The notes under the pieces are model-generated. The model saw only the letters and a list, made by a program, of their open reading frames with translations, did not search any database and was not told the DNA's origin. From an uncultured Bacteroidales bacterium (GTDB lineage Bacteria > Bacteroidota > Bacteroidia > Bacteroidales > WCHB1-69): a DNA stretch of 13,978 nt. Positions 1 to 13,896 of this stretch are shown here, piece after piece; position 1 is the first letter of the stretch, and every line of letters begins with the position of its first letter. A program made the translations under genes and the position numbers. Where the stretch lies: assembly GCA_946407715.1 (NCBI GenBank), contig CAMJPH010000064.1, positions 1 to 13,978 of the forward strand, written 5' to 3'.

Positions 1-80
1 CCTACACGCACGGCTACTATCTTGTCTCCCAGCGCGTTGGTGAAGCCTTCAAGGACGGGATGAAGCTGAAATCATTTTAA
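1..80 (+). CDS. C-terminal end of an unidentified protein (partial)
   Basis: Reading in frame from base 3, the sequence codes for about 25 residues ending in KDGMKLKSF and a TAA at 78-80. The gene starts upstream of the window. The open frame, the GC-rich codon use matching pepD, and the 10-base gap to the next start suggest the end of a real gene, possibly co-transcribed with the dipeptidase. The tail (GYYLVSQRVGEAF...) is too short for me to assign a family. Confidence 0.6.
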   Translation, partial: YTHGYYLVSQRVGEAFKDGMKLKSF

Positions 81-90
81 TCCCCAAAAT

Positions 91-1530
91 ATGACAACCC
101 ACAACATCAATCCCGACCGCGTTTTCAGCATCTTCCGTGAGCTGAACCGGATTCCGCGCCCCTCGCACCACGAGGAGCGCATCGCCGACTACCTTTGCCA
201 GTTCGCCGAGCGGCTGCATTTGGAGTACGAGCGTGACAAGGAGAACTGCGTGGTGATCCGCAAGCCCGCAAGCCCCGGACACGAGGCGGCCGAGCCCATC
301 GTGCTACTCAACCATATGGATATGGTCTGCGTGGGCATGAGCGACCCGCTCAACGACCCCATCGAGGCCTACGAGGAGAACGGCTGGATGAAGGCCCGCG
401 GCACTTCGCTCGGCGCCGACAACGGCATCGGGTTGTCGATGGCCCTCGCCGTGCTCGAAGACGACCGCATCGTACACCCCGCCCTGGAGGTCATCACCAC
501 GACCAACGAGGAGGACGGCATGTCGGGCGCCTCGCAGCTCAGCAAGGACTTCCTCAAAGGCCGCAAGGTCATCAACCTCGACTCCGAGGACTACGACACC
601 ATCACCACCGGGGCCGCTGGCGCCTGCCTGCAGTTCCACCGCATCCCCGTGGAACGCCTGCCAGCACCCAAGGCTGGCCAGTGGCACCGCATCCGCATCG
701 CCGGCGGACTGGGCGGCCACTCCGGCGTCGATATCAACAAGGGACGCTGCAGCGCGGTGGAGCAGACTAAAATCATCCTGAAAGTAATCAGCAAGGAAGA
801 AGACATTGAAGTTGCTGACATTCAGATCGGTGAAGCCAACGCCTCGATTGCATCGTCGGGCGAGATGGTGATTTGGACCGAAAACAAAGGGGCTTCCGAG
901 TTCGTGAAGGAGCTGTTGGACAACATCAACCAGACGTTCCACAGACAATATGCCGGCACCGACCCGCACATCACCTGCAGTGTGGAGGCGTGCGAGAAGC
1001 GGGAGACGGTCATCCCCAAAGAGACTGTCGCGGCGTTGGTCCGCAGTTTGGAGAAGGTGCCGCAGGGCGTGGTGCAGATGAGCGCGGCGATGCCCGGCAC
1101 GGTGGAGACCTCCAACAATGTGGGGCGCATCGTGGCGGAAGAAGACCACCTTTTCGTCTCCACCCACACCCGCAGCTTTGTTGACGACGACATGGCCGCG
1201 TTGAGCAAGACGATTGCCGCGACCTTTGCCGAAGCAGGTGCCGTTTCCGAGGTCGTGATGTCGGCCCCGGCGTGGCAGGAGGACCAGCAGTCGCCGTTCC
1301 TGCAGCGGGTCAGCGACACGTTCCAGGACGTGCTGGGCTGGCGTCCCCGTATGGTGGCGATGCACTTCGTGCTGGAGGCGGGCTTCTTCGTGCAGCACTA
1401 TCCCGGCATCCAGATCGCCAGCATCGGTCCGCGCATCGTGGAGCCGCACTCCACCAGCGAGCGCGTGGAGCTCTCGACCATCCACGACATCTGGAGGGTG
1501 CTGATCGAGTTGCTGGAGCGGTTGGCGTGA
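91..1530 (+). CDS. pepD: Aminoacyl-histidine dipeptidase (M20C, PepD-like)
   Basis: A 479-residue cytosolic metallopeptidase expected to cleave dipeptides such as Xaa-His with a two-metal centre. Length fits the M20C family (about 480-490 residues). Visible metal-site motifs, in family order: LLNHMDMVC with H75 and D77; GADNGIG with bridging D110; NEEDGMSGA with catalytic E140 and metal ligand E141; NLDSED with D164; and EPHSTSERV with H453 near the C-terminus. The segment GGLGGHSGVDINKGR (about 204-218) matches the lid/dimerisation region. It starts at the first ATG after the preceding gene's stop, 10 bases away, suggesting an operon. All expected metal residues are present, so it is likely active. 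It is housekeeping in character and marks the left edge of the defence-rich region. Confidence 0.93.
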   Translation: MTTHNINPDRVFSIFRELNRIPRPSHHEERIADYLCQFAERLHLEYERDKENCVVIRKPASPGHEAAEPIVLLNHMDMVCVGMSDPLNDPIEAYEENGWMKARGTSLGADNGIGLSMALAVLEDDRIVHPALEVITTTNEEDGMSGASQLSKDFLKGRKVINLDSEDYDTITTGAAGACLQFHRIPVERLPAPKAGQWHRIRIAGGLGGHSGVDINKGRCSAVEQTKIILKVISKEEDIEVADIQIGEANASIASSGEMVIWTENKGASEFVKELLDNINQTFHRQYAGTDPHITCSVEACEKRETVIPKETVAALVRSLEKVPQGVVQMSAAMPGTVETSNNVGRIVAEEDHLFVSTHTRSFVDDDMAALSKTIAATFAEAGAVSEVVMSAPAWQEDQQSPFLQRVSDTFQDVLGWRPRMVAMHFVLEAGFFVQHYPGIQIASIGPRIVEPHSTSERVELSTIHDIWRVLIELLERLA

Positions 1531-1547
1531 GGAGGGTGCGCCTGTGT

Positions 1548-1575
1548 CACCACACTGCGCTGCGCTTGTGTGGTG
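1548..1575. repeat. Inverted repeat, REP-like or terminator hairpin
   Basis: A perfect 8-bp stem, CACCACAC (1548-1555) with GTGTGGTG (1568-1575), closes a GC-rich 12-nt loop. It lies 18 nt after the pepD stop and could end pepD transcription, though only TTAATT follows it, not a true T-run. Confidence 0.5.
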
Positions 1576-1595
1576 TTAATTGCACTGCGTGCGTT

Positions 1596-1612
1596 CAGCC
1601 TCTCCGAGGCTG
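1596..1612. repeat. Inverted repeat, REP-like hairpin
   Basis: CAGCCTC (1596-1602) and GAGGCTG (1606-1612) form a perfect 7-bp stem with a 3-nt loop, followed by GGAGAAAA. Together with the hairpin 20 nt upstream it forms a compact, GC-rich, non-coding double palindrome between two genes, the usual look of a dispersed bacterial REP unit. A copy-number search was not possible. Confidence 0.45.
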
Positions 1613-1640
1613 GGAGAAAAGTATGACAAAATGATAGTAT

Positions 1641-2123
1641 ATGAGCAATAGTTTCAACATCCGTCCGGCGAAGCCCGAAGAGGCGGGTCTCGTCTTAGAA
1701 TTCATCAAGAAGTTGGCCGTCTATGAGAAATGCGCCGATGAGGTGGTGGCTGACGAAGCCACTGTCTATCATTCCCTGTTTGTAGAGCGTTCCGCCGAAG
1801 TGGTCTTCGCGGAGGAAGACGGCGCGGTGGTCGGCTTCGCCCTCTTTTTCCACAACTTCTCCACCTTCGTGGGGCGCAAGGGGCTCTATCTCGAAGACCT
1901 GTTCATCCTTCCCGAGAAGCGGGGTAGGGGATACGGCAAAGCCCTGCTGAAGCATCTGGCCAAGATCGCCGTGGAACGCCACTGCGGCCGCATGGAGTGG
2001 ATCTGCCTCGACTGGAACGAGCCCGCCCTGAAAGTCTATCGCAGCATCGGGGCCGTCCCGATGGACGAATGGACGGTGCAGCGGTTGGACGAGGGGGCGT
2101 TGAAGCGGTTCGCGGGAGCGTAA
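1641..2123 (+). CDS. GNAT N-acetyltransferase, SSAT-like
   Basis: A 160-residue single-domain GNAT protein expected to transfer acetyl from acetyl-CoA to a primary amine. The acetyl-CoA pyrophosphate-binding motif A is seen at 91-102 (P-E-K-RGRGYGKALL). The preceding strand GLYLEDLFIL (81-90), the motif DWNEPALKVYRSIGA (124-138, with Y133 as likely general acid) and the whole central part resemble eukaryotic diamine acetyltransferase (SSAT) and thialysine acetyltransferase. Polyamine, thialysine or another amine is therefore the likely substrate, but substrate cannot be read from sequence. The ATG at 1641 puts the RPAKPEEA strand at the N-terminus as usual. It converges on the helicase gene, with 24 bases between their stops. 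Confidence 0.88.
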   Translation: MSNSFNIRPAKPEEAGLVLEFIKKLAVYEKCADEVVADEATVYHSLFVERSAEVVFAEEDGAVVGFALFFHNFSTFVGRKGLYLEDLFILPEKRGRGYGKALLKHLAKIAVERHCGRMEWICLDWNEPALKVYRSIGAVPMDEWTVQRLDEGALKRFAGA

Positions 2124-2135
2124 TCTGCTCTGACG

Positions 2136-2159
2136 GAGGTGGCGCGTTCAATCCACCTC
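2136..2159. terminator. Hairpin between convergent genes (possible bidirectional terminator)
   Basis: GAGGTGG (2136-2142) pairs perfectly with CCACCTC (2153-2159) across a 10-nt loop. It starts 12 bases after the GNAT stop and overlaps the helicase stop codon. There is no T-run on either side, so intrinsic termination is uncertain; the position between two converging genes is the main support. Confidence 0.35.
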
Positions 2160-4679
2160 ACGACTCACCAACGCCTCTATCGGCACGGTGCTGTCCATCA
2201 GCCCGATGCGGGTGTCGGAGGCGTGGCGGTTGACGCCGGTGTAGGCTAAGGAAGCGTCTTCGTAGCGGCGGAACTTCAGAATGGCGTCGTTCATCTGGGC
2301 GCGGTTGAAGACGCCGACGCGCAACAACAGGTCGAAGTCGTCGATGGTTAAGCCTGTGACGCGCTCAAACAGACTCGGTTCCAGCTTGCGTATGACATCC
2401 TCAAGACTCTCTTCCCGATAGTCGGTGAGATACATGAAGATAGGAATTCGCGTGGCGAACTTCATCAGCTTTTCTTGCACCTCGCGCCGTTTGGAACGGT
2501 ATTCCTTCTCCTCCTGCGTCAGTTCCTTTTTCTTCTTGCTGTCGCCGCCTTCACCGGCTTCGCGTTTCAGTTTCTTTATCTTATCTGCACGATTGACGAT
2601 GTTTTCGATGATGTCGCTGCCCAAAGCACGGAAGCCTTCAATCTTCATAATGGCAGCCATAGCTTCGGGATTATTCAGTACCCGTTGCAGTGTGGTATTA
2701 TCGACATTCACCAACTGGGCACTATTCCACCGGCGGGCCAGTAGTGTGCCGCTGGTGCCATTGTCCACAAAGTCAAGGATTTCGGTGGCATCCACCCGCT
2801 TCATAGAACTGCCATCGAATTGCAGAATGGGCAGGAAGTTGATGAACTCATCCACCTTGTCGGTGATGCGGCGGTTGCTATCCACATCCAATTGGTTGGC
2901 GTAGGTCACCACCTCGCGCAGGGCACGGTTGGGCGCGAAATCGAAGACATAGCAGGTGGGCTTGAGAATGGTCCGTTTCGTGGGGTCTTCCTCGTCGGTG
3001 GCCGTCCACGGACTCTGCACCCGGAAAGCCGTCTGGAAGTAGGTCTCGGGACTGGAGCAGTTGCGCAGCATCAGCAGTCCGCCTAACGGTCGCAGGGTGA
3101 CACCCGTGGTCAGCTTGCCGCAGGTTAGCGTGATGGTGCGGGTCTTCAGCGGATTGTCGCCCATGGCCTCGCGCACCGGACCGAGAGCATCCATGCCGAT
3201 ACCGGCCTTGGTTCCGCTGCAGTTGATGATGGTGTAGTTCTGGTAGAAACCGTTGGCAGGACGGTGCAGCAGTGCTTCCATCGCATCGCACGAGGCCACA
3301 TTGGGCAGGAACCACATCGTGTGGGCGCAAAGGTCAAGCAAACGGGTGTCTTCGAAAGGCAGTGCTGGGCGCACGTTGAGGGGCGAGCTGCCATCGCCGA
3401 AGATGGGGGCTTTGCCACGGATAATGTCGAGCCACTTCTGCACGGCTTTCTCATGGACGAAGGTCTTTCCCTCTGCCCGGAAGAACTCGTTGAGGTCGAA
3501 GCCGTCCATGTCCCATTGCTCGATCATCGCGCCGAGGTCTTGCGGCATCTGGTAGGTCATCATCACCATGGTGGGCATCTCCAAGTAGGGACCACCGACG
3601 GATTCTTTCCGTGCCTGCTCGTCTTGATAGGTCCAGTTGAAGATCTGGCTTTCCATAAACTCGCCCGTGGCGAGGGCACGGAAAGGGGTGCCGCTGAGGT
3701 AGAGGTAGTGCTTGCCCGTGATGGGCACATCGCTGTCGTCCCAGGCGCGCCCGCTCTCCACATCAATGCCGCTCTCGCTCATCACCGCGTCCTCTTCCGC
3801 CTGCCGTTTCTTGGCATCGGCATCCCCAAGGTCGAGCAGACTCTTGGCGTTGTCGTTCCAAGCCCCGAAATGGTACTCGTCCAGCACAATCAAATCCCAG
3901 TGTATGCTGTGTACCCACTCGTTTTTCGTTTTGATATTGCCGTATTTATCCCTGCCGAGGTAGTCCTGGAACGAGCCGAACACCACCAAAGGAAATTGAG
4001 AATTGATAATGGATAATGGATAATTGTCGTCGGCGTTTTTGCTGCTATAATATCGCCAGCCTTCAAAGTCGCGGTGCCGCAGCAAATCCTCCTTCCACGA
4101 GTCCTCCACGGCGGGTTTGAAGGTGAGCACCAGCACCCGTTTGGCGCCCATGCGTTTGGCGAGCTGGTAGGTGGCGAAGGTCTTGCCGAAGCGCATCTTG
4201 GCGTTCCACAGGTAATGGCTTGGGCGGTCAGGCTCCTCTTCGTCCATCCTGGCGAAGTAGTCGGCGGTCTGTCTCACCGCCTGCGCCTGCTCATCGCGCA
4301 TCTCGTAGTCGAGGTCGCGCACCGTCTTGATGTCCGTATCGCGATGGCGCACAGCCACGTATGCCGCCTGTGCCTCGCGCAAGGAGCAGCGGCACCATTC
4401 GCCAATGAGTTCCTTGCCCATACGGCGCAGGTAGTCGTGGAGGTCGTGGTCGCCGAAGCTCTCGCCGCTGCCATCGGCGTAGAAGGCGTTGTCGTGCCAC
4501 AGCAGGTGGTATGTCTTGTACGGTTCGGTGATGGGATGCTGCTCGTCGATGCGCTCGTTCACATCGATGCGGCCCGTCTGCCCGATCTTGATCCAGCCCG
4601 GGAAGGCGATGTCGTCGTACATGTAGATTTGCGGGACCGTGCGTTTTCCGCTGGGCAAAATCTGTTCAATTGTCGCCAT
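2148..4679 (-). CDS. GIY-YIG-like / DExH helicase, restriction subunit of an R-M-like system
   Basis: An 843-residue protein with two parts. The N-terminus (about 16-100) looks like a GIY-YIG/T5orf172-type nuclease domain: IYMY (18-21), PGWIKIGQT (27-35), NERIDEQHP (41-49), and EW at 94-95 as candidate acidic site. The rest is a superfamily 2 helicase: RDEQAQAV (128-135), Walker A NAKMRFGKT (159-167), DEYH box (267-270), SGTPF (329-333), TTGVTLRP (motif V) and QTAFRVQSPW (motif VI). A lysine-rich coiled segment (KIKKLKREAGEGG...) precedes the C-terminus. Such proteins act as ATP-driven DNA translocases/nucleases. It is the last gene after two methyltransferase genes on the same strand, so I read it as the restriction component. 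A heptanucleotide repeat encodes residues about 218-229. The start ATG is 43 bases after the toxin stop; no clear own promoter was seen in that gap. Confidence 0.8.
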   Translation of the reverse strand: MATIEQILPSGKRTVPQIYMYDDIAFPGWIKIGQTGRIDVNERIDEQHPITEPYKTYHLLWHDNAFYADGSGESFGDHDLHDYLRRMGKELIGEWCRCSLREAQAAYVAVRHRDTDIKTVRDLDYEMRDEQAQAVRQTADYFARMDEEEPDRPSHYLWNAKMRFGKTFATYQLAKRMGAKRVLVLTFKPAVEDSWKEDLLRHRDFEGWRYYSSKNADDNYPLSIINSQFPLVVFGSFQDYLGRDKYGNIKTKNEWVHSIHWDLIVLDEYHFGAWNDNAKSLLDLGDADAKKRQAEEDAVMSESGIDVESGRAWDDSDVPITGKHYLYLSGTPFRALATGEFMESQIFNWTYQDEQARKESVGGPYLEMPTMVMMTYQMPQDLGAMIEQWDMDGFDLNEFFRAEGKTFVHEKAVQKWLDIIRGKAPIFGDGSSPLNVRPALPFEDTRLLDLCAHTMWFLPNVASCDAMEALLHRPANGFYQNYTIINCSGTKAGIGMDALGPVREAMGDNPLKTRTITLTCGKLTTGVTLRPLGGLLMLRNCSSPETYFQTAFRVQSPWTATDEEDPTKRTILKPTCYVFDFAPNRALREVVTYANQLDVDSNRRITDKVDEFINFLPILQFDGSSMKRVDATEILDFVDNGTSGTLLARRWNSAQLVNVDNTTLQRVLNNPEAMAAIMKIEGFRALGSDIIENIVNRADKIKKLKREAGEGGDSKKKKELTQEEKEYRSKRREVQEKLMKFATRIPIFMYLTDYREESLEDVIRKLEPSLFERVTGLTIDDFDLLLRVGVFNRAQMNDAILKFRRYEDASLAYTGVNRHASDTRIGLMDSTVPIEALVSREVD
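3990..4024. repeat. Heptanucleotide tandem repeat inside the helicase gene
   Basis: On the + strand the sequence reads as 7-base units: degenerate AGGAAAT, TGAGAAT, TGATAAT, GGATAAT, GGATAAT. On the coding strand this is (ATTATCC)2 ATTATCA ATTCTCA. It is translated as DNYPLSIINSQF, between Walker A and the DEYH box. Since 7 is not a multiple of 3, gain or loss of one unit would shift the frame. Confidence 0.7.
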
Positions 4680-4722
4680 AATCTCAAAAGTTTATGGCGC
4701 TCTTTGAAATAATTTTAAGGAT

Positions 4723-5034
4723 TTAATGATACAACAAACTGTGTACTGCGTCACGAACGAAAATGACTTCTTGGCCGTTCTTATCGAGAACCACCTCGTA
4801 TGCAAAATGGAAATCCTCGCAAATAAAATCCTGCCAGTTGTTTTTTATCCAATCGTCTTTCCATCTGGCCTTGGGGTAGATGAAATAGTAATCCTTCAAA
4901 GACCCAAGAGCAGCTATTAGCCGTTTCTTTTTAGCCATAACAGTCTCTTCAGACAACGAAATGTGCCTGTTCATAGCAGCGATATAGAATTCGTCAATCG
5001 CTCTCACAACAGCATCATCAACAATTACTTTCAT
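4723..5034 (-). CDS. RelE/ParE-like toxin (putative)
   Basis: A 103-residue protein with a short helical N-terminal half, an aromatic/basic middle (YYFIYPKARWKDDW, about 49-62) and a C-terminal strand region (EDFHFAYEVV ... VIFVRDAVHSLLYH) like the small RelE/ParE-type toxins of Bacteroidales. RelE relatives cleave mRNA on the ribosome and ParE relatives poison gyrase; I cannot tell which, if either, applies. Its ATG overlaps the TAA of the upstream gene by one base (TAATG), implying translational coupling to the antitoxin. It sits between the methyltransferase and helicase genes and is more AT-rich than both. Confidence 0.62.
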   Translation of the reverse strand: MKVIVDDAVVRAIDEFYIAAMNRHISLSEETVMAKKKRLIAALGSLKDYYFIYPKARWKDDWIKNNWQDFICEDFHFAYEVVLDKNGQEVIFVRDAVHSLLYH

Positions 5035-5222
5035 TATTTGTTGTGATAATGTTGATGGATGAGTTCTGTCAGATGGGCATCAAGTTCTTCAAGTGTCATG
5101 CTCCGCTTGATTTCCTCGTCCGTTAATGTCCGAAGAGTCTTTTGGACAGGAGCTACATATTGCACTTGAGGCTCATTAACTTCTTGATTTTCGGTGTCTT
5201 CTATGGGATAATCTTTTGCCAT
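5034..5222 (-). CDS. Antitoxin-like small acidic protein (putative)
   Basis: A 62-residue protein with an acidic, Pro/Gln-rich and probably disordered N-terminus and a helical C-terminal segment (TDEEIKRSMTLEELDAHL...). It has no recognisable DNA-binding fold. It is the first gene of a two-gene unit with the RelE/ParE-like protein, overlapping it at TAATG, the usual antitoxin-first order. A likely -7 box and a perfect palindrome lie 25-52 bases upstream of its ATG. The antitoxin role rests on this arrangement and the partner, not on a strong motif. Confidence 0.58.
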   Translation of the reverse strand: MAKDYPIEDTENQEVNEPQVQYVAPVQKTLRTLTDEEIKRSMTLEELDAHLTELIHQHYHNK

Positions 5223-5246
5223 TTCGTATTTTATTTTCTACTGCCG

Positions 5247-5254
5247 CAAAAATA
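5247..5254 (-). promoter_or_regulatory. Likely -7 promoter box of the toxin-antitoxin pair
   Basis: On the minus strand TATTTTTG matches the Bacteroidota -7 consensus TAnnTTTG, 24 bases before the antitoxin ATG. A TTTG at 5270-5273 could be the -33 element, although its spacing (15 bases) is shorter than usual. Confidence 0.45.
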
Positions 5255-5259
5255 CACTT

Positions 5260-5274
5260 TTTTGTTGAACAAAA
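5260..5274. promoter_or_regulatory. Perfect palindrome, candidate operator of the toxin-antitoxin pair
   Basis: TTTTGTT-G-AACAAAA is a perfect 7+1+7 inverted repeat immediately upstream of the candidate -7 box and covering the candidate -33 TTTG. This is where an autoregulating toxin-antitoxin complex would bind. CAC and GTG further out extend the symmetry imperfectly. Confidence 0.45.
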
Positions 5275-5330
5275 GTGCCTCCCTATATTTTATTTCAAAG
5301 AACGCAAATTATTTGTTGTTTAATATTTAA

Positions 5331-6824
5331 CTATTCCATCGGCCGTATCATGCTCTCAATGAAGGCGATCTCGTCCTTGTCCAAACCGTATTTTTCGTAC
5401 AGCATCTCGTCCGTCCAGGGGTGGGAGAAGTCTTGGAGGGGAATCAGTTCGTACACCTTTTGTGTTGTATGTTGGGTTATCTTTTTTAGTCCCAACATGA
5501 AGTGAAAGAACTTTGTTCTAATATAAGTGATAGCATTCTTTGCTTCTTCTTCTGATTTAAAAGGACCATTCATAATGTAAGTTTCGGTATTTATTGTATT
5601 AGGTTCACATAAAATGGGTTTTACAACATCTTTTCCCATTTCACCTGAACCAATCGCCTCAGGTACAATAACTTTCCAGTCATTTATGTATTCCTTACCA
5701 TTCGTGATTTCAGTTGTCCTAATGTAACCTGTTGTTCTTTGGGCATACACTTTCGTGTATCCTTTTGCTGGGGAATCTCGTTCAAAATCTTTCACATAAC
5801 TTCTTAGCCCAAAAGTCATTGCAGGATGAATAATGGTACTGTATGGTTTTTCTCTGTGGCTTTGAACTTTATGAAGAATGCTTATTGCTTCATTCTGTCG
5901 AATGAATGTGTCACATCCTTTTTCGAGTAATTTTCTCGTCATAGATGACACTTTTTCGTTCTCTCTGAATGTATTTACAGTTACATCACCTCTTTCATCT
6001 TTATTCCATAGAAAAATGCATACACCGCCTTTAATTTCTACTCCAGGAAAACAATCAGAAGCATTTGGCATGTCGTGAATTATTCGAATTCTATTGTCTT
6101 TTAGCATCTCGTCCCTGAAACTATTCAATTCTTTCCCTCCAGCATACCATCTTGCAGGTATAATCATACAGATGAATCTTGGATTGACTGTTTTAGCTTG
6201 TTGGACAAAAAGTGGATATATGGGTCTTGCACTGGCACCATATCCTCCATCGTCAAGTTGGTACGGCGGGTTTCCAATAATTACGTCGAATTGCATATCT
6301 TTCTTGAAAATTTCTTTGATTGATTTGTGAATAAACGGATAGGCGTAGGTCTCGCGGGTGTCGGCACGGAGGTATTCGCCCTGACTGGCACCGCAGTGTT
6401 CGCATCGGCCTTGCTGGTTCCAAGTGTGACGGCAGCGTTCGTAGCGCAGGTTGCCCTGCACATCATGGAAAGCCGTACTGACGCTGTATTTGCCGTTGGC
6501 CAGTTTGGTACAGTAAAGCGTGCGGCGGCTCATCTCGGCGGTGAGGTCGGTGCAGGCGATGCCGAAAACCTGCTTGGTCATGATGTGGTCGATACGCTGC
6601 TGCAGATCGGGAATCTGTTCTTCGAGACCCGCCAACAGCCGTTTCGCAATCTCGCGCAGGAAGACCCCGCTCTTGCTGCAGGGATCAAGAAATCGCATTT
6701 TGGAACTGCGGAACAGCTCCTGCGGCAGCAGGTCGAGCATTCGGTTGGCCAACTCGGGCGAGGTGAAGACCTCGTCGCTGCTCAGATTGGCCAAGCAATT
6801 GAGGATGTCGGGACTATAATTCAT
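5331..6824 (-). CDS. N6-adenine DNA methyltransferase large subunit (M2, Eco57I-like, NPPY)
   Basis: A 497-residue gamma-type amino-methyltransferase subunit. Seen: motif X-like EVFTSPELANRMLDLLP (18-34); altered motif I FLDPCSKSGVFLREI (45-59), where a Lys-Ser replaces the usual Gly-rich turn; a Cys cluster C131, C141, C144 that may bind zinc; catalytic motif IV FDVIIGNPPYQL (179-190); then PARWYAGGKELNSF and a long C-terminal region, the likely target-recognition part. NPPY enzymes methylate adenine N6. The gene follows M1 on the same strand after 41 bases of heptad repeat; its ATG lies inside that repeat. The core (about 5465-6325) is AT-rich while both ends are GC-rich. With M1 and the helicase it forms an R-M-like set. 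Confidence 0.85.
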   Translation of the reverse strand: MNYSPDILNCLANLSSDEVFTSPELANRMLDLLPQELFRSSKMRFLDPCSKSGVFLREIAKRLLAGLEEQIPDLQQRIDHIMTKQVFGIACTDLTAEMSRRTLYCTKLANGKYSVSTAFHDVQGNLRYERCRHTWNQQGRCEHCGASQGEYLRADTRETYAYPFIHKSIKEIFKKDMQFDVIIGNPPYQLDDGGYGASARPIYPLFVQQAKTVNPRFICMIIPARWYAGGKELNSFRDEMLKDNRIRIIHDMPNASDCFPGVEIKGGVCIFLWNKDERGDVTVNTFRENEKVSSMTRKLLEKGCDTFIRQNEAISILHKVQSHREKPYSTIIHPAMTFGLRSYVKDFERDSPAKGYTKVYAQRTTGYIRTTEITNGKEYINDWKVIVPEAIGSGEMGKDVVKPILCEPNTINTETYIMNGPFKSEEEAKNAITYIRTKFFHFMLGLKKITQHTTQKVYELIPLQDFSHPWTDEMLYEKYGLDKDEIAFIESMIRPME

Positions 6825-6850
6825 AATTCACAATTCATAATTCATAATTT
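6816..6850. repeat. Heptanucleotide tandem repeat at the M2 start
   Basis: Five 7-base units on the + strand: ATAATTC, ATAATTC, ACAATTC, ATAATTC, ATAATTT. They fill most of the gap between M1 and M2 and include the M2 start codon (6822-6824). Unit changes would alter the spacing between the M1 stop and the M2 start. Confidence 0.7.
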
Positions 6851-6865
6851 GATTGGCTGATATGG

Positions 6866-7519
6866 TTATTTTTGGGTGTGAAGTTGAGTATAATGCACAG
6901 GTGGATAAGACCTTACAGGTTCATCGAAACTTTGCGCTTCGCCTTGCTCGTCGAAGAGGCTGTATTGGTGGCTTTGGGTGACGAGGAAGTCGAACTGGAA
7001 GTCGCGACGGGAGAACTGCATACTGCCAGCGATGGGTGTCCATTCGCAGAAGGTGATGGGCTTATTCTCGGCGGTGCGGTAGGTGAGGGCGTCACCGCAG
7101 ACGATGTTTTTTCGGAGCATGTAGCGGAGGGAGAGGAGGTAGTGACTGTCCACGGATAGCCTCTCCAGGGTGGGGTGTTGAGAGAGAACATAGTGTTCCA
7201 GTCTTGTGCGGCAGGCCTCGGCGTTGTCGGAAAGGATGTCGATGCCGTAGCAGGAGCCGACGGCGATGAGGCTCTGGAACTCCCAGTCGGTCGGGGATTT
7301 GATGTCTTGCAGAAGGGAGAGTTTGCGGCGGAGGATTTCGATGAGGAAGTTGCCGTCGCCGCAGGCGGGCTCGAGGAAGCGGCTGTCGAGCCGGAATGAC
7401 TCGTCTCGCACGAGGTCGAGCATAGCGTTCACCTCTCGCGGATTGGTGAACACCTCGCCATGGTCAGCCACTCGCTGGCGGCTTTTGATTTGTTTGGGGT
7501 TTTCGTTTGTTGTAGGCAT
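6866..7519 (-). CDS. DNA methyltransferase small subunit (M1, motif I protein without NPPY)
   Basis: 217 residues from the chosen ATG at 7519. Seen: motif X-like GEVFTNP (21-27); canonical AdoMet-binding motif I FLEPACGDGNFL (48-59); YGIDI (91-95, motif II position) and CGDAL (141-145, motif III position). At the motif IV position the sequence is DFLVTQSHQYSL (177-188) where M2 has DVIIGNPPYQL, so catalytic Asn-Pro-Pro-Tyr is missing. The protein ends soon afterwards, with no target-recognition domain. The frame stays open to a GTG at 7573, but those 18 codons overlap a structured leader and precede the conserved KSRQRVADHGEVF start of this family, so I prefer ATG 7519. Likely works as a complex with M2. 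Confidence 0.78.
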   Translation of the reverse strand: MPTTNENPKQIKSRQRVADHGEVFTNPREVNAMLDLVRDESFRLDSRFLEPACGDGNFLIEILRRKLSLLQDIKSPTDWEFQSLIAVGSCYGIDILSDNAEACRTRLEHYVLSQHPTLERLSVDSHYLLSLRYMLRKNIVCGDALTYRTAENKPITFCEWTPIAGSMQFSRRDFQFDFLVTQSHQYSLFDEQGEAQSFDEPVRSYPPVHYTQLHTQK

Positions 7520-7523
7520 AAAA

Positions 7524-7655
7524 AATCCGTGAACTTCTGTCGTGTACGGAGGTTCTCGACTACCTACTATCACAAACGAGAAAGCCCACGGATATAACCG
7601 TGAGCGTCCTGCTTTCTTGAGTGATAGTATAGAAATTGTCGAGATTTCCGTACAC
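7524..7655 (-). ncRNA. Structured leader RNA of the R-M-like operon (possible attenuator)
   Basis: On the minus strand this region folds as nested imperfect stems: 7647-7655/7542-7550 (TCCGTACAC with GTGTACGGA), 7638-7644/7554-7560 (GTCGAGA with TCTCGAC), 7621-7628/7566-7573 (GTGATAGT with ACTATCAC), 7611-7619/7577-7585 (nine pairs, one G-U), and an apical CCGTG/CACGG hairpin (7598-7602/7587-7591) with a large one-sided bulge. TCACGG recurs just before a run of six T (minus strand) that abuts the M1 ATG, so the apical CCGTG could pair with either copy. This resembles a terminator/antiterminator choice, or a structural RNA. I do not recognise a known riboswitch class. Confidence 0.5.
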
Positions 7656-7767
7656 CTTGAAAAGCAAAAAACGCTTTTATACTATATGTTTAACTTTTTA
7701 TTCTATTTCTATCCTTCTACTGTTTTTATATCGATATTTGGTTTAAGTATCTGTTTTATTTTGGGTG

Positions 7768-7775
7768 CAAAGATA
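7768..7775 (-). promoter_or_regulatory. Likely -7 promoter box of the R-M-like operon
   Basis: The minus strand reads TATCTTTG, a full match to TAnnTTTG. It lies in the gap after the ABC ATPase gene and about 250 bases before the M1 ATG, which would place the whole structured region in a 5' leader. No convincing -33 TTTG was found. Confidence 0.45.
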
Positions 7776-7815
7776 ATTTTTAAGGAGTTGGTAAAAACAT
7801 GAAAAATAATCTCAC

Positions 7816-9531
7816 TTATTTATTTTCTATTCTAAAGAGTTTATCTCCTTGTGATAACTTGACCACATAGTATTCATTACGCTTTAATTCTATAGGGAGT
7901 TTATCTTCGAGTATTGAAGCGATGAATTGGATGTTCTCACTGTTGGCTATTTTGGCAAGTTTTACAAGTTGATTGTCATGCATAAGTTCTTTCTTGTCAT
8001 TCAAAATAAAATGAAGACAAGGTATTCCTTCTTGGTCTGCAAATAATGTATAAGCAATATCAAAACAAGAAATCTCACCCTGTTTTTTGCCAGAACTTAA
8101 GTTGGTCCCAATGATTGAAAACTTATATATGGGTTGACCTTTTCTATTAAACACAATATCTTCTTTAACAGAATAGCGTTCATCATAAAGCTCATCTGAA
8201 ATATTTGAGAATATATCGTTGAACTTTGACAGTTGTTCATCAACTTTATTCCTGAAATCAGTAGAAAACAATCCTTTATCTATGCTATTTAGTTCATCCA
8301 TGAATTTAGTCATCGTGATATCAGAAGTCTCAATCTGAGATAAAACAGCACTGTACTCCCCCTTGCGTGTATATTGTTCATTCAAATCATTGATTATCTT
8401 TTCCAGTTCTTCAAATGTGTTGGATGAAGTAATGCGTTCTGACAGCTCTTTTTCTTTATTCCTAAGTTTTGAAAAATCACGTTGTAGGGTGGCCAAGTGT
8501 GACTCAAGTGAAGGAATTTCCTCTTCAATGAAACGCACTCTGTTAGCAAGCATATTATTATGATATGCCACTAGTTCTTCGAATGTGTATTGCAAATTAG
8601 GAATCAATGCTGATGCTTGTTGATATATAAACTTCAGTTGTGTGAGATCTGCATCAAAACGTTGTTGATTGAAATCTTCTATAGACTCTGCGATGACATC
8701 TCGTCTTATACGTAAAGAAGTAATATTAGAAGCGACTTTGTTCAATTGTTCTTTCGTCTCAGCCAATTCTTTCAAATCCTTATCTATCTGTGGATTAAGG
8801 TTGAGTGAAGACTTTTGAGATTCCAGTTTCGCAATCTCTCTATCTATATCCTGGAGAGCTACTTTATAAGAATTCTTTGTACCATTTTTTTCCAATCTCT
8901 TTTTGAAGTTAGATTCGCTTTTGATATTTGCCAATAATTCCTCTCTTCGGCTCCCCTCGTCATAGTCACAACCAAAAAGGAAAAGATACAGCGTTTCATA
9001 TTCTTCAAGTTTTGTAAATGCGTTTAGAATCTCAAGAGTGTTGTTTAGACGGATTTCCTCGTAGCGTATATTGTGGGCTATAATTTGTCTAAATGTCGGT
9101 TTGGGAACTTGTATTGTCGGAAAAATAATTTTACCAAGATGTGCTTCTAAATCGGTTTTGTTTACATCCTCGCCATTCACTTTGCAGATAGTTTCACTAC
9201 GCTTCAAGAAATTTCTACTAATTTCTACCATGTGATTTGGATTGTCCAAGTTATCAACTAAAGTCAATGTGATAATTATCTTCTTTTCTATTAGATAATC
9301 TTTGACGAGTTGATAGACTTCCGTTTTGTTCTCTGGATCCTTATAAATAATACTTCCGTCTTTACCAAGACAGAAGTCGATCAAACGGAGAACTGTTGTC
9401 TTACCAACATTATTGCCTGTCAAAGTTTCCCCAATAGGGGTCTCATCAACGATTAGATTCAGCCCACGATGGAACCGAATGTCTCGTATTACCTTAGTGG
9501 GTGTGGATATAAGTAATGATTCTAAGAACAT
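7816..9531 (-). CDS. ABC-three-component (ABC-3C) system ATPase, DUF2326-type
   Basis: A 571-residue SMC/RecN-like ABC ATPase. Walker A TGNNVGKTT lies at 38-46. A long coiled-coil middle (about 195-420, e.g. DIDREIAKLESQK and DFSKLRNKEKELSERI) separates the ATPase halves. The signature-like NLSSGKKQGEISCFDIAY begins about residue 477, and Walker B CLHFILND at 505-512 ends in Asn-Asp rather than Asp-Glu, usual in this DUF2326 branch. The protein is soluble, with no membrane segments. Its ATG overlaps the end of the middle-component gene by 10 bases, so the two are translationally coupled. In ABC-3C systems the ATPase is thought to sense or process invader nucleic acid and license the effector; that role is family knowledge, not shown here. 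Confidence 0.85.
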   Translation of the reverse strand: MFLESLLISTPTKVIRDIRFHRGLNLIVDETPIGETLTGNNVGKTTVLRLIDFCLGKDGSIIYKDPENKTEVYQLVKDYLIEKKIIITLTLVDNLDNPNHMVEISRNFLKRSETICKVNGEDVNKTDLEAHLGKIIFPTIQVPKPTFRQIIAHNIRYEEIRLNNTLEILNAFTKLEEYETLYLFLFGCDYDEGSRREELLANIKSESNFKKRLEKNGTKNSYKVALQDIDREIAKLESQKSSLNLNPQIDKDLKELAETKEQLNKVASNITSLRIRRDVIAESIEDFNQQRFDADLTQLKFIYQQASALIPNLQYTFEELVAYHNNMLANRVRFIEEEIPSLESHLATLQRDFSKLRNKEKELSERITSSNTFEELEKIINDLNEQYTRKGEYSAVLSQIETSDITMTKFMDELNSIDKGLFSTDFRNKVDEQLSKFNDIFSNISDELYDERYSVKEDIVFNRKGQPIYKFSIIGTNLSSGKKQGEISCFDIAYTLFADQEGIPCLHFILNDKKELMHDNQLVKLAKIANSENIQFIASILEDKLPIELKRNEYYVVKLSQGDKLFRIENK

Positions 9532-9749
9532 AGATAAACTTCTCCTTTCTCATTAATTGAAGCTGCATGAATCAAATACAGCCAATCCAATGATAATAAC
9601 AAAAGCTTGAATGACATATCATGCTCTTGCTTCATCTGTACAAACAAATCAGCAATCGATATCATCCCCTTTTGCTGAATTACTTGCAGAACCATAGCAC
9701 CTGTATAATAAATACTATGTCTTGGATGTATTGAATCAGGCAATAACAT
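9522..9749 (-). CDS. ABC-3C middle component (MC6-like)
   Basis: 75 residues from the ATG at 9749. The sequence starts MLLPDSIHPRHSIYYTGA and contains an FKLLLLSLDWLYLIHAASI segment followed by GEVYL, the small winged-helix-like pattern of ABC-3C middle components, most like the group called MC6. A longer frame opens at 9797, but the internal ATG gives the typical N-terminus and lies within the last 14 bases of the effector gene. The protein would bridge effector and ATPase. It overlaps both neighbours, fitting fixed co-expression. Assignment depends strongly on its place between a SMEK-type effector and a DUF2326 ATPase. Confidence 0.75.
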   Translation of the reverse strand: MLLPDSIHPRHSIYYTGAMVLQVIQQKGMISIADLFVQMKQEHDMSFKLLLLSLDWLYLIHAASINEKGEVYLCS

Positions 9750-10704
9750 AATTGTAACCTTTAGGATTTTCAAATATCTTACAACGAATAAAAGCATCCA
9801 CTACTAAAACATCTGTGCAGATGTCTATAGACTCATAACTAAGTTCACCATTGGCAGCATGATTGATTATTTCTGTTTTTACATCATTGCGAACGGCATC
9901 AAAAAGTACGTCACCTTGTTTGCTCGTCTTCTCAGTAAGATAAAAAGAACGAATCTTCTGAAGAACAAAGAATGATTTATTCATTCCTTCTGCATCAAAA
10001 GTCTCATAGACGCGTCTAACAGCGGTTTGCCAAACATTATATTCTTTGATGATGCCAACAGAATTGGATAAAGTGTTATAATCAATTTTCTCATCGATTT
10101 GGAATTCATTATCAATCTTAATACCTTCGAATTCCGATGCATCAACCTTTGTCAATAGTAGGATAACCTTTGCTAAATCAGATTCAAGTGTGGCAGAGAA
10201 TACATCATTTCCTAACTCTGATTTTACGAAATCAGCTACAGTTTGTAGCCTTTCTGTAGTAAGCCCCAAAACTTCACGTAATATTGCATCTATATCATAA
10301 ATATCTTCTGAAGGATTAAATAATAGTCCATACTTATTGTTAAATGCTTTGCCTTTCAAAGCATCGGCAGATCGTGCTATTGAAATGAACTTGAAAGTCC
10401 AACCAGCATATTCTGCCATAATAGGCTTTGTTAAGGCATTTTCTATCTTTTGCTTAGTGTTGGTGGAAGAAACCTGTATGACAATTTTATTTATACGGTC
10501 AATCAAATCTATTGCTTCAACATTTTGATTTACTTCATTTAGATTTTCCAGATTCCATTCAAAGAGCAAATTAAAAAAATCACGATAAAAGTTTTCAGAA
10601 TGTAGATGCAAGTCAAGAATATTGAGTTTCCCTCGTCTTTCAACGCGGAAAGCTAATACGCTGAGTTTTTCTTCTACATAATCAAACAATTGTTCGCGTT
10701 TCAT
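9736..10704 (-). CDS. ABC-3C effector with SMEK-type N-terminal domain
   Basis: A 322-residue soluble protein. The N-terminal half (about 1-180) has the SMEK pattern: LNILDLHLHSENFYRDFFNLL (28-48), then NVEAIDLIDRINKIVIQVSS (61-80) with acidic D66/D69 and Q77-V78, and a Lys-rich TNTKQKI (81-87). The D...QV arrangement recalls a restriction-endonuclease-like core, so a nuclease is possible but not established. The C-terminal half ends with a predicted ABC-3C docking region including CKIFENP (308-314). First gene of the operon, overlapping the middle-component gene by 14 bases. Candidate -7 boxes lie 39-84 bases upstream of its ATG. Low GC relative to the window's left edge suggests horizontal acquisition. 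Confidence 0.78.
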   Translation of the reverse strand: MKREQLFDYVEEKLSVLAFRVERRGKLNILDLHLHSENFYRDFFNLLFEWNLENLNEVNQNVEAIDLIDRINKIVIQVSSTNTKQKIENALTKPIMAEYAGWTFKFISIARSADALKGKAFNNKYGLLFNPSEDIYDIDAILREVLGLTTERLQTVADFVKSELGNDVFSATLESDLAKVILLLTKVDASEFEGIKIDNEFQIDEKIDYNTLSNSVGIIKEYNVWQTAVRRVYETFDAEGMNKSFFVLQKIRSFYLTEKTSKQGDVLFDAVRNDVKTEIINHAANGELSYESIDICTDVLVVDAFIRCKIFENPKGYNYVIA

Positions 10705-10742
10705 ATTCGGTCATATATTCAAAAACAAATAAGTCTTCTTTA

Positions 10743-10750
10743 CAAATGTA
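10743..10750 (-). promoter_or_regulatory. Likely -7 promoter box of the ABC-3C operon
   Basis: The minus strand reads TACATTTG (TAnnTTTG), 38 bases before the effector ATG. A second match, TACTTTTG, lies at 10781-10788; either or both may be used. No clear -33 element was seen. Confidence 0.4.
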
Positions 10751-10812
10751 TTTACAATAATGATGGCATTAAAAATTTTGCAAAAGTAATAAATTAACTT
10801 GAATCAGGGGGC

Positions 10813-10829
10813 AAAAAAGTCGTTTTTTT
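10813..10829. terminator. A/T-only hairpin, weak terminator candidate
   Basis: AAAAAA (10813-10818), GTCG, then a run of seven T (10823-10829) form an A/T-only stem. It lies downstream of the DUF3990 cassette and upstream of the ABC-3C promoter, so it could separate the two units, but the stem is weak. Confidence 0.25.
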
Positions 10830-10834
10830 CATTT

Positions 10835-10867
10835 TCCCATCAAAATCCCATCAAACTCCCAACAAAT
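10835..10867. repeat. 11-bp imperfect tandem repeat, three units
   Basis: TCCCATCAAAA, TCCCATCAAAC and TCCCAACAAAT follow one another at the 3' end of the Fic remnant, covering its stop codon. Probably the result of slippage. Confidence 0.5.
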
Positions 10868-11028
10868 CTCACAAACCCCTCCACATCTCCCTCCACGCTC
10901 GCCTTCTCCAACGCCGCCATGTACGCTTCCCGCCGCTCTACGGGGATCACCACCCAAGGGTAGCCGGCGGTCACGAGCCGGCTGTTCATCACGAAACGGG
11001 CCGTGCGGTGCACACTCCTACATCCCAT
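10840..11028 (-). pseudogene. Fic family C-terminal remnant, copy 1
   Basis: The frame codes for HRTARFVMNSRLVTAGYPW, VIPVERREAYMAALEKAS, VEGDVEGFVRFVGSLM, the C-terminal helices typical of Fic-domain adenylyltransferases. The catalytic HPFxxGNGR motif and everything N-terminal to it are absent. The frame opens inside the 3' end of the preceding small gene (11-base overlap), so any product would be a 62-residue fragment. A second copy lies about 1.2 kb away on the same strand. I read it as debris, although a small retained domain cannot be excluded. Confidence 0.72.
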
Positions 11029-11209
11029 ACCCCTTCTCCCTCATAAACTCATCCGCCACATACAAATCCCCGTAAAGATAAAGCCCTGTCGATTTGTCGT
11101 GGAGGTCGGCGCAGGTCTGGCTCTCGTAGAATAGTTGCAACGCTTTCACGGGTTCAATATTGAGCCGCTTGGCCAACTCTACCGAGATGGCGCCAATGCG
11201 GTTGCTCAT
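11018..11209 (-). CDS. Small protein of the DUF3791/DUF3990 cassette
   Basis: 63 residues from the ATG at 11209, which has a rare good Shine-Dalgarno sequence (AGGAGA, 5 bases upstream). The frame also opens at an ATG at 11266, which overlaps the DUF3990 gene by 20 bases; either start is possible. Visible: a helical AISVELAKRLNIEPVKALQLFY, followed by SQTCADLHDKSTGLYLYGD and LYVADEFMRE. Short proteins of this shape commonly accompany DUF3990 genes. No enzymatic motif is seen; an antitoxin or partner role is inferred only from position. Its 3' end overlaps the Fic remnant frame. Confidence 0.6.
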   Translation of the reverse strand: MSNRIGAISVELAKRLNIEPVKALQLFYESQTCADLHDKSTGLYLYGDLYVADEFMREKGYGM

Positions 11210-11246
11210 AATAATCTCCTGTATGACAGGCGATTTGACGGGGTCA

Positions 11247-11738
11247 TCAGATTGTTTCTGTTCCATCGAATATCAAGTATTTGTCTGTTAATTCCTGTGA
11301 AAGCAAACACATTTGGTTGTTGGGCTGGTGCTGCGACAGGCGAAGCAGGGCGGTTTCCTCGTCCATCAGACCTGCCATATAGAGGTTAACGGTATCGACC
11401 ACGCGGTCGTTGGCCACACCGCCTTCAATGTAATCGTAGTCGTCGGCCACAGGCTCACCACGACGGCTGGCCACAATAAATTGCAACCAGTCCTTATCGT
11501 ATGCTTTGGAGACCTTGCAGCGAGCTTCAGCCAATATGGCATCGCGATTTAAACGATATCGGTTTATAATGGGAGGTTCCTTCCTGCGGTCGGCCACTTG
11601 TGTGGCCCAATCAACCGCTTGCTGACGCAAATCCGTAACATAAAAGCCCTGGCCGAAGTCCAAATTACGACGGCCGAATTTGCAGATAGGGAACTCTACC
11701 TTTTCTGTTCCTCCATGATATACAATCAGTTCACTCAT
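11247..11738 (-). CDS. DUF3990 protein, ADP-ribosyltransferase-like fold
   Basis: 163 residues from the ATG at 11738, chosen because it overlaps the stop of the preceding gene as ATGA (an ATG at 11765 is less likely). Seen: IVYHGG (5-10), FGRRNLDFGQGFYVTDLRQQA (21-41), GGVANDRVVDTVNLYMAGL (106-124) and PNNQMCLLSQELTDKYL (139-155), the DUF3990 pattern. The YHG and FYVT elements correspond to NAD-contacting positions in ADP-ribosyltransferase-like folds, so transfer of ADP-ribose to a protein, RNA or small molecule is plausible but untested. Placed between two small genes in an overlapping trio, an arrangement that suggests a toxin with one or two partner proteins. Confidence 0.8.
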   Translation of the reverse strand: MSELIVYHGGTEKVEFPICKFGRRNLDFGQGFYVTDLRQQAVDWATQVADRRKEPPIINRYRLNRDAILAEARCKVSKAYDKDWLQFIVASRRGEPVADDYDYIEGGVANDRVVDTVNLYMAGLMDEETALLRLSQHQPNNQMCLLSQELTDKYLIFDGTETI

Positions 11739-11974
11739 TTTCCGTTCTCCCAATTGTTCATACATTCTACTAATACTTCCGCAAGATTGTCCCTGCTCTC
11801 ACTATGAAGCGTTTCGTAGTGAGGGAGTATAAACCGCTCTATCAGATCCACACGCTTCATCCGTTGGTAAACTTCTTTGTAGGAAGTATTAAGAAATCTA
11901 GCGGTGGTCTCAACACAAGTGGCTATGAACGTCATGACCACTTGTGTCCTTGATATTTCTACAACATTCTTCAT
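11735..11974 (-). CDS. DUF3791 small protein
   Basis: 79 residues from the ATG at 11974 (an upstream frame to 12016 would cross the promoter). Visible: TFIATCVETTARFLNTSYKE (about 15-34), VYQRMKRVDLIERFILPHYE and LHSESRDNLAEVLVECM, the mostly helical DUF3791 pattern including the IxPxYExLH segment. It is the first gene of the trio and overlaps DUF3990 by 4 bases (ATGA). The likely -7 box TATTTTTG lies 20 bases upstream of the ATG. A perfect 10-bp inverted repeat covers codons about 10-21. Function unknown; a partner or antitoxin for DUF3990 is the simplest idea. Confidence 0.72.
   Translation of the reverse strand: MKNVVEISRTQVVMTFIATCVETTARFLNTSYKEVYQRMKRVDLIERFILPHYETLHSESRDNLAEVLVECMNNWENGK
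11913..11947. repeat. Perfect 10-bp inverted repeat in the DUF3791 gene
   Basis: ACACAAGTGG (11913-11922) pairs exactly with CCACTTGTGT (11938-11947) across a 15-nt loop. It lies about 27-61 bases inside the coding region on the minus strand, where it would form a stable mRNA hairpin or a dyad for a DNA-binding protein. Confidence 0.65.
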
Positions 11975-11993
11975 AACACAGCATTCAAGAGTG

Positions 11994-12001
11994 CAAAAAT
12001 A
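11994..12001 (-). promoter_or_regulatory. Likely -7 promoter box of the DUF3791/DUF3990 cassette
   Basis: The minus strand reads TATTTTTG (TAnnTTTG), 19 bases upstream of the DUF3791 ATG, the same octamer as at the toxin-antitoxin pair and the AAA ATPase gene. Confidence 0.42.
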
Positions 12002-12051
12002 CAAATCTTTTCCCATTCGTCAGATTTTGCGCAAGAAAAAAACACCTCTCC

Positions 12052-12216
12052 TCACATCAACCCCCCAATAAACCTCACGAACTCCTCCACATCCCCCTCC
12101 ACGCTCGCCTTCTCTAACGCCGACATGTATTCTTCCCGGCGCTCCACGGGGATCACCACCCAGGGGTAGCCCGCTGTCACTAATTGGCCGTTCATCACGG
12201 AGCTGGCGTTACAGTT
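12052..12216 (-). pseudogene. Fic family C-terminal remnant, copy 2
   Basis: An open frame without its own upstream domain codes for VMNGQLVTAGYPW, VIPVERREEYMSALEKAS and VEGDVEEFVRFIGGLM before a stop at 12052-12054. From VMN to the end it matches copy 1 at 41 of 48 residues. An in-frame stop (12217-12219) closes it upstream, so the Fic catalytic core is missing. The two copies are in the same orientation and flank the DUF3791/DUF3990 cassette. Confidence 0.72.
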
Positions 12217-12226
12217 TTATCCCTAT

Positions 12227-12343
12227 TTACTCCGCTCTGACCCCCAACACCTCAAACAGTTCTGCCATTTGTGAGTAAGTGTAATCCCTTTCTGTTTCTT
12301 CTTTCTCTTTCATGGATTGGGCGGCGTTGCGTAATGCAAGCAT
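12227..12343 (-). CDS. Small hypothetical ORF downstream of the AAA ATPase
   Basis: 38 codons starting ATG 12 bases after the ATPase stop and in the same frame, so a stop-codon mutation or readthrough would fuse them. The product (MLALRNAAQSMKEKEE..., ending AELFEVLGVRAE) is charged and helical and resembles the tail of a larger protein. It may be a small gene or the remnant of a lost partner gene. I do not recognise the family. Confidence 0.3.
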   Translation of the reverse strand: MLALRNAAQSMKEKEETERDYTYSQMAELFEVLGVRAE

Positions 12344-12355
12344 ATAATTGTATCC

Positions 12356-13558
12356 TTAATTTTCTTCATCGTCTTCAAAATATATAGGTGAACCTAATTG
12401 GGGAATTGCGCCTAACCGGCCGTTCCGATAGGACTTGTATAAAGACAAATTTTTGTGCAGCCCGTATTCATCCGCACGTGTGTATTCGGAATAAGCCCCT
12501 TCACGGTTCTTCTCCGCAAAGAACACAAAATCACGATGTGTGTTCAACAGGTCTTCGTTCAACAATGAAGTCTCTTGGCTGGTGAAAATCAACTGCGACT
12601 CATTAGAATTCATGACGAATGTGTTGAGAAAATAGAGCAATAAATCATCGTGCAGTTCTGAGTCTATCTCATCTATGAAATATATATTGTGGCTTGAAAT
12701 CGCATTGTAAAGCGTTGATAAATTGCTTAAAAACTTTTTAGTCCCTTGAGACTGCTCATCCAAACTGAGGGTAAAAGTTTTGCCACCAGCTTTGCAATCA
12801 AAGTAAACTTTTGTCGTAGAAATGTCCTCACGGAAGTCCACAATATTAAAATCGGCTTTTTCCAACATCTGGAGATAGAAGCGCTTGGCTGAAGCAACCC
12901 CCATCACCTGTCGAAGCGATTCTTCAAGAATGAAATTCGGATTGTCGAGCTGATATACATATTTAGATATCCAGTTATACAGATTGGCGATGGGTCTGGC
13001 ATCGGCTTCAAATGCTCTCTTGCCGAAACAAGAAAGAACGGTATGGTTGTTTAAGGTGTTTTGCAGAAAAATGTCCTTTGTCTTGGCCGACAGACCCAAA
13101 CTTTGACCGAATTTTATGGAAGCTTGCAAATCATCAGACTGGTATTTGCGTTCATAAAAAAGCGACTTAGAACCGTTCGGGAACCATTCCATCAGCTCTT
13201 CCATAATATGTTCCATCGTAAAAGAAACGGTGTAATCGTAACGGATATGGTTAGCGTAGAACGAAACATGCATCCGTGTGGGTTTATCCATACATAAGGC
13301 AAATGATCGCCTCGTCTTAACTAACTCTGTTTTATTTTCCCGCGTATGAAACAGCAGTTCGAAAACGTTCAAAAGGGCCAGCAACATATTTGATTTCCCG
13401 GATGCATTGGCACCATATATCACCGCCAGTTTGTTAACCCGCTTCTCGTTACCCATGTCCACAGAAGCCCATTCATCTTCCTTGGATTTTGTTTCGAAGT
13501 TTAACGTTTGACGTTCCTTTATCGAAAGAAAATTCTCAACCCAAAATTCTCTTATCAT
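12356..13558 (-). CDS. AAA family ATPase, AbiLii/RloA-like
   Basis: A 400-residue soluble ATPase of the AAA_15/AAA_21 (OLD/ABC-like) group. Seen: N-terminal FWVENFLSIKERQTLNF (5-21) typical of this group; Walker A YGANASGKSN (48-57); signature-like DEQSQGTKKF (267-276); Walker B IYFIDEID (292-299); and ELHDDLL (about 301-307, D-loop). In the switch position the sequence is LIFTSQETSLL (about 323-333), with Gln where relatives usually have His. Relatives such as AbiLii and RloA act in abortive infection or restriction loci, often with a RloB-like partner gene; no such partner is present downstream. A TATTTTTG -7 box lies 25 bases upstream of the ATG. Rightmost minus-strand gene of the defence block. 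Confidence 0.82.
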   Translation of the reverse strand: MIREFWVENFLSIKERQTLNFETKSKEDEWASVDMGNEKRVNKLAVIYGANASGKSNMLLALLNVFELLFHTRENKTELVKTRRSFALCMDKPTRMHVSFYANHIRYDYTVSFTMEHIMEELMEWFPNGSKSLFYERKYQSDDLQASIKFGQSLGLSAKTKDIFLQNTLNNHTVLSCFGKRAFEADARPIANLYNWISKYVYQLDNPNFILEESLRQVMGVASAKRFYLQMLEKADFNIVDFREDISTTKVYFDCKAGGKTFTLSLDEQSQGTKKFLSNLSTLYNAISSHNIYFIDEIDSELHDDLLLYFLNTFVMNSNESQLIFTSQETSLLNEDLLNTHRDFVFFAEKNREGAYSEYTRADEYGLHKNLSLYKSYRNGRLGAIPQLGSPIYFEDDEEN

Positions 13559-13582
13559 AATAACAGCTTTTTAATTATGCCG

Positions 13583-13590
13583 CAAAAATA
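13583..13590 (-). promoter_or_regulatory. Likely -7 promoter box of the AAA ATPase gene
   Basis: The minus strand reads TATTTTTG (TAnnTTTG), 24 bases before the start codon. A TTG at 13606-13608 could serve as -33 but is closer than usual. Confidence 0.42.
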
Positions 13591-13695
13591 ATAAAAATAT
13601 TGATACAACCGATAAATAAATCAGATTTTTGTAAAAAAGTTACGAAATAGAAGTAAATTTCTTTTGTATCTGTTTTTCCGGTAATTTTGTTCTCA

Positions 13696-13754: not shown

Positions 13755-13896
13755 CGCTGAAAAAATACAAAAACAATTCAATATCACGTTATTGACTTTG
13801 ACAATTGCGGAGCTTGATATCGAAAGTCGCCACTCGGAGCATCTTTCCACATCTCATCCCGTTTTGATAATCCTTAACCCCTAACCATTATTTGTG

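Follow-up and report, generated by a model that had tools for sequence, protein, structure and literature searches.

The methylase pair M1-2.DrdVI, encoded on the plasmid pDrdVI of Deinococcus wulumuqiensis NEB 479, was cloned and expressed in E. coli ER2796 and is described as a Type IIG enzyme with the specificity GCAGCC and N6-methyladenine (6mA) as its modification (PMC6430315). The archaeal MaeIV of Methanococcus aeolicus (M1-M2.MaeIV) is described as a split methylase and restriction–modification (RM) system similar to DrdVI, the cloned pair giving m6A in GCACY. PMC4996451 describes broken relatives in Bibersteinia, where one gene is M1.DrdVI-like at its start and M2.DrdVI-like at its end; a second, GIY-YIG gene there is likewise similar to DrdVI and is called a fused translocase and restriction endonuclease. 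The sole fusion-like M1–M2 case we met, Btr188ORF1790 in the same text, is frameshifted or divided into several open reading frames (ORFs). Here, we analyze a related locus in 13,978 nucleotides of DNA from an uncultured Bacteroidales bacterium (GenBank assembly GCA_946407715.1, contig CAMJPH010000064.1, positions 1 to 13,978; hereafter the window), where two neighboring genes, M1 and M2, may divide the sites of one adenine methyltransferase between them.

The Gene Trio and Its DrdVI Relatives

M1 (6866..7519, minus strand; 217 aa) carries motifs X, I, II, and III and is the putative S-adenosylmethionine (AdoMet)-binding half of an N6-adenine methyltransferase. M2 (5331..6824, minus; 497 aa) is an Eco57I-family methyltransferase with the catalytic motif NPPY, a target-recognition domain (TRD), and degenerate AdoMet motifs, and R (2148..4679, minus; 843 aa) joins an N-terminal GIY-YIG-like region to a superfamily 2 (SF2) helicase/translocase. 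All three are homologues of DrdVI products: a search of plasmid proteins with M2 led to pDrdVI, and the identities are 42% over 202, 47% over 524, and 48% over 856 alignment columns for M1, M2, and R, respectively. Matches to Pfam are strong for M2 (Eco57I-family methylase, E 2.4e-31), under the curated cut-off for M1 (MmeI_Mtase), and for R barely over the cut-off with ResIII and under it with MUG113; homologues of R are annotated as GIY-YIG nucleases. A first hint that M2 and the helicase gene belong to one system came from the PADLOC model PDLC03626 (Type IIG enzyme), which matches both, R with positions 480–801 (its best stretch) and M2 with positions 863–1358.

The genes run in the order M1–M2–R on a single strand (minus, 7519–2148), and this order is identical on pDrdVI. 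The motif pattern is also shared, M1.DrdVI having EPACGSGNF and no NPPY, and M2.DrdVI having DPCTKSGVFL and NPPY; the two differ in that M2 and R are separated by two small ORFs in the window only. Because homology, gene order, and motif pattern all match, we assign the trio to the DrdVI-type split Type IIG systems, a family already known, of which it is a further member. The likeness to MaeIV is one of published description.

Complementary Motif Loss in M1 and M2

To cover relatives of M2, the ORFs of 125 loci were searched, comprising the best 80 of 590 confirmed genome-contig loci, 42 viral contigs, and 3 viral M1 loci; since the best 80 were taken, the genome loci are biased in favor of close M2 relatives. 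We retained 117 M1 ORFs with a length of 150 aa or more and 121 M2 ORFs with 400 aa or more. Four loci with a shorter M1 ORF (L003, L013, L038, and L039) lie outside the 117, and L102 and L108, repeat copies of the L001 and L002 contigs, are in both ORF sets, but are excluded from the co-occurrence counts. The M1 alignment has 61 rows, namely the window M1 and 60 of the 61 rows remaining after thinning (L066, of another M1 type, was left out). That of M2 has 86, made up of P0002, P0126, P0133, and P0145 and 82 of 86 thinned rows (L012, L014, L071, and L103 were left out). The M2 relatives among the matches come from Bacteroidota, Cyanobacteria, Pseudomonadota, Spirochaetes, Bacillota, Deinococcota, Actinomycetota, and viral contigs.

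None of the 117 M1 ORFs contains [NDS]PP[YFWH], and motif I together with the motif II acid is present in 116, the exception being L066. E50, P51, G54, and G56 of motif I (EPACGDG, residues 50–56; 7352..7372, minus) are kept in all 61 aligned rows, as are D98 and N138; residue 94 is always D or E, and position 143 is D in 48 rows and N in 13. Eight cofactor-motif columns of M1, of which five are invariant or nearly so besides the D/E of 94 and the D/N of 143, have a mean entropy of 0.22 bits, compared with 1.74 over all columns. M2 shows the complementary loss. Its motif I (DPCSKSG, 47–53; 6666..6686, minus) has Lys51 where GxG would have its first Gly, with Lys in 86/86 aligned rows and K[ST]G in 121/121 ORFs, and its NPPY (185–188; 6261..6272, minus) recurs in 120 of the 121, N185, P187, and Y188 being kept in every aligned row and P186 in 85. 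The remaining ORF, of Avibacterium (L029), has NLPY; the R frame of that locus is shortened. The original prediction, made from this DNA alone, had proposed two proteins with complementary half-sites: a canonical motif I without NPPY or a target-recognition region in M1, and NPPY with an altered motif I in M2. These features are borne out, M1 having no TRD, and the complementary loss recurs in homologues from many phyla. The prediction had named NPPY in homologous M1 proteins as a finding that would refute it, and the check came out in its favor (0/117).

A comparison with CamA of C. difficile, where both sites lie in one chain rather than on two as the conserved motifs of the window do, extends the pattern. 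In PMC8187626, S-adenosylhomocysteine is described as held at its amino group, its ribose, and its adenine by three aspartates, which belong to motifs I, II, and III. M1 keeps all three of these places (the third as Asn in the 13 rows above), whereas M2 keeps only the first: its position 90, which pairs with M1 residue 94 in a profile comparison, is A, G, S, or P in the 86 rows and never an acid. At the place expected for motif III, M2 instead has His133...Cys141-x2-Cys144 (6393..6428, minus), a probable zinc-binding element judging from conservation (H133, C141, and C144 in 86/86 rows; C105 in 85/86). A heptamer repeat, ATAATTC in 4.9 copies (6816–6849), lies across the start codon of M2, and a change in its copy number could alter the M2 start.

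One part of the earlier proposal has to be given up. TQSHQY of M1 (181–186; 6962..6979, minus), which it had set at the position of NPPY, is unconserved across the family and starts inside a modelled helix, and we reject it as a degenerate NPPY. According to the model, ITFCEW, which includes FCEW (157–160; 7040..7051, minus) with the invariant Trp160, is the probable strand of motif IV. Searches for structural relatives added little: Foldseek with the M1 model gave no match at E <= 0.001, a VIA-align re-check of its candidates did better than Foldseek itself, and sequence searches of solved structures were weak with single sequences and reached at best E 0.018 with the M2 profile and E 0.0011 (3ufb) with the M1 profile. 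Seven phage records matched M1, one with at least 80% coverage.

The two genes also travel together. In 115 of 119 loci, M2 is preceded by an M1 ORF at a distance of at most 1.5 kb. Three of the other four start at a contig edge, which leaves the viral fragment L123 as the one locus with enough sequence and no M1. The order M1–M2–R holds in 107/107 loci with all three genes. In three phylum-drawn genome samples (M2 at E <= 1e-60, M1 at E <= 1e-20), M1 stands within 0.75 kb of a full-length or nearly full-length M2 in all 28 such genomes: 18/18 among 296 genomes around Alistipes, 2/2 among 299 around Avibacterium, and 8/8 among 146 around Pseudanabaena. Each sample contains its known-positive center, so the independent count is 25/25. 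This constant pairing sets the family apart from Type IIG enzymes of the MmeI/OspHL35III type, which have one methyltransferase–TRD chain and lack a separate M1. A motif-pattern scan of 171 loci found no single-frame M1–M2 fusion. On a viral contig (L003:1999-3254), an apparent adenine methyltransferase extends over two ORFs overlapping by one base, the first containing motif I and the second NPPY; these are distant kin of M1 (37%) and M2 (28%).

The pairing bears on the idea that M1 is what remains of a duplicated methyltransferase gene in decay and has no present role. M1 does end after strand 4, and fragments do occur (L170; a Flavobacterium locus, L038, with broken M1 and R frames; and two M1 fragments of the Alistipes sample, G185 and G192, in genomes with no M2 match). 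The 28/28 adjacency and the strongly conserved cofactor columns argue against it, and we rate this the least probable of the explanations considered; M1 as a pseudogene is refuted as far as conservation allows. Two further genomes of that sample, G017 and G280, have a partial M2 with M1.

A Probable Single Methyltransferase over Two Chains

With a probability of roughly 0.6, we interpret the trio as a DrdVI-type split Type IIG RM system whose single N6-adenine DNA methyltransferase is made up of both M1 and M2. The TRD of M2 would read the site and its NPPY would form the adenine pocket; M1 would contribute the intact AdoMet pocket, its AdoMet serving as the methyl donor for the NPPY of M2, as conservation alone suggests; and the GIY-YIG/helicase protein would be the restriction–translocation subunit. 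By analogy with DrdVI and MaeIV, the M1–M2 pair would place m6A and unmodified DNA would be restricted. That a single methyltransferase may be spread over two chains had been anticipated in the original prediction, and this part fits the split methylases DrdVI and MaeIV, with a single m6A motif per pair; the residue-to-residue pairing of TQSHQY with NPPY does not survive. METTL3–METTL14 is a precedent for two methyltransferase-fold chains, one of them degenerate, making one working enzyme, with AdoMet and the catalytic motif in the same chain; in the window pair the conserved functions are on different chains.

Alternatively, M1 and M2 could be methyltransferases that act independently of each other, each on its own strand or its own site. 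Paired M1 and M2 subunits with separate activity are known from PacII, MhoVII, and Csp12AI, but both parts are active in these systems, and the M subunits of PacII, a Type I system of the M1M2S type, have NPPF or NPPY. Here, M1 has neither an NPPY (117/117 ORFs) nor a TRD, and the DrdVI and MaeIV pairs are assigned one motif each (PMC6430315 for DrdVI). We regard separate action as very improbable.

Several observations weigh against a donor site on the other chain. Modelled alone with AlphaFold2, M2 adopts a near-complete methyltransferase fold that includes a motif I strand of its own, so that such a donor would be geometrically awkward, and M1, having a strand of its own at the motif IV place, is not a bare half awaiting strand 4 of M2. 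The altered motif I of M2 is as invariant as the normal one of M1, which points to a functional element that could bind AdoMet differently. To these may be added the Asn rows at position 143 of M1, a viral fragment (L123) with M2 and R and no recognizable M1 in its 30.7-kb record, and the result of open-access literature searches, which found no separate study of M1 or M2 of the DrdVI family.

The same model and the same conservation would also suit M2 as a complete enzyme with a remodelled AdoMet pocket, in which Lys51 and a conserved TxLT stand in for GxG and the motif II acid. In that case, M1 would be an obligatory pseudo-enzyme, acting as an AdoMet sensor or shape-holder and, for example, licensing restriction by AdoMet. 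The Lys is found in helicase-fused M2 sequences as well (L152, L155, L157, and L130), and L123 would be readily accommodated. On the other side, M2 has no counterparts for two of the three cofactor-holding acids of CamA, and the low entropy of the M1 cofactor columns is hard to account for in a mere scaffold, though not in an AdoMet sensor. On balance, we consider a self-sufficient M2 rather unlikely.

The Fused Branch, Orphan Halves, and Surroundings

In four genomes of the Alistipes sample (G176, G031, G042, and G265), the second half of M2 alone is matched within ORFs of >1,300 aa; from their sequence these, with the second match in G120 and one in G358, look like helicase–M2 fusions. The fused ORFs at L130 and L160–L164 hold helicase and M2 in one frame and measure 1,321–1,446 aa, except for L164 with 971 aa. 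Three fused examples have the motif I sequences DLYMKSG (L152, equal to L160), DIASKQG (L155, equal to L162), and EINSKSG (L157, equal to L164), all with Lys, and the fused M2 on an Enterococcus faecium plasmid (L130) also has Lys in motif I. NPPY is present in the M2 part of L130 and of L160–L164. An upstream same-strand ORF of 287–336 aa without NPPY is present in four of five fused loci (L161–L164), and its motifs look like X, I, II, and III (LEISCGEAPYL, YGFEWQGDS, WQMDGL, or close variants); at L160, no such partner was found among same-strand ORFs of at least 170 aa within 10.7 kb. From its motifs, we read this half, which also occurs at L131 and beside the unfused M2 of L066, as a putative second kind of M1. 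On the E. faecium plasmid and on Paenisporosarcina plasmids, it is an ordinary M1 that adjoins the fused protein.

That a half without NPPY and a catalytic half with the Lys motif recur in the fused branch suggests that the split outlives large sequence change. We propose, tentatively and with some doubt, that this is an RM branch with the donor (AdoMet) and acceptor (adenine) sites on separate chains, a layout older than the DrdVI genes, since the fused branch keeps a K[SQ]G M2, mostly with a different-looking NPPY-less partner; the donor chain would be exchangeable, and an M1-like half in an Avibacterium prophage could use a host M2. This orphan half (L166:3312-3908, minus; 198 aa) has EPSCGTGNF, YGVDI, and LGNAL and no NPPY, lies near putative integrase and BRO-type prophage genes, and has no adjacent M2; three further matches occur in the same genome (G006 C2). 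One may speculate that the half in L166 serves a phage as a decoy or hijacks the M2 of the host.

The small ORFs that separate M2 from R in the window (5034–5222, 62 aa, and 4723–5034, 103 aa; minus) overlap by one base and match no Pfam family above the cut-off; their layout is toxin–antitoxin-like, which is a guess at their nature. At some other loci too, M2 and R stand several hundred bases or more apart. Upstream of M1 lie an ABC-three-component system (7816–10704, minus; DUF2326 ATPase, MC6, and SMEK/CTD10 proteins), a DUF3990 protein that is the PADLOC candidate PDC-M13 (11247–11765, minus), and an AbiLi-like AAA ATPase (12356–13558, minus); with the DUF3990 and AbiLi-like genes, the surroundings look like a defence island.

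For the DrdVI family, only specificity is reported in the literature that we found, although relatives of M2 are widespread. The conserved complementary loss poses a testable question, namely whether AdoMet held on one protein can serve the NPPY pocket of another. If it can, the pair would represent a layout that is new among DNA methyltransferases; if not, attention would turn to a motif I that binds AdoMet with a Lys in it.
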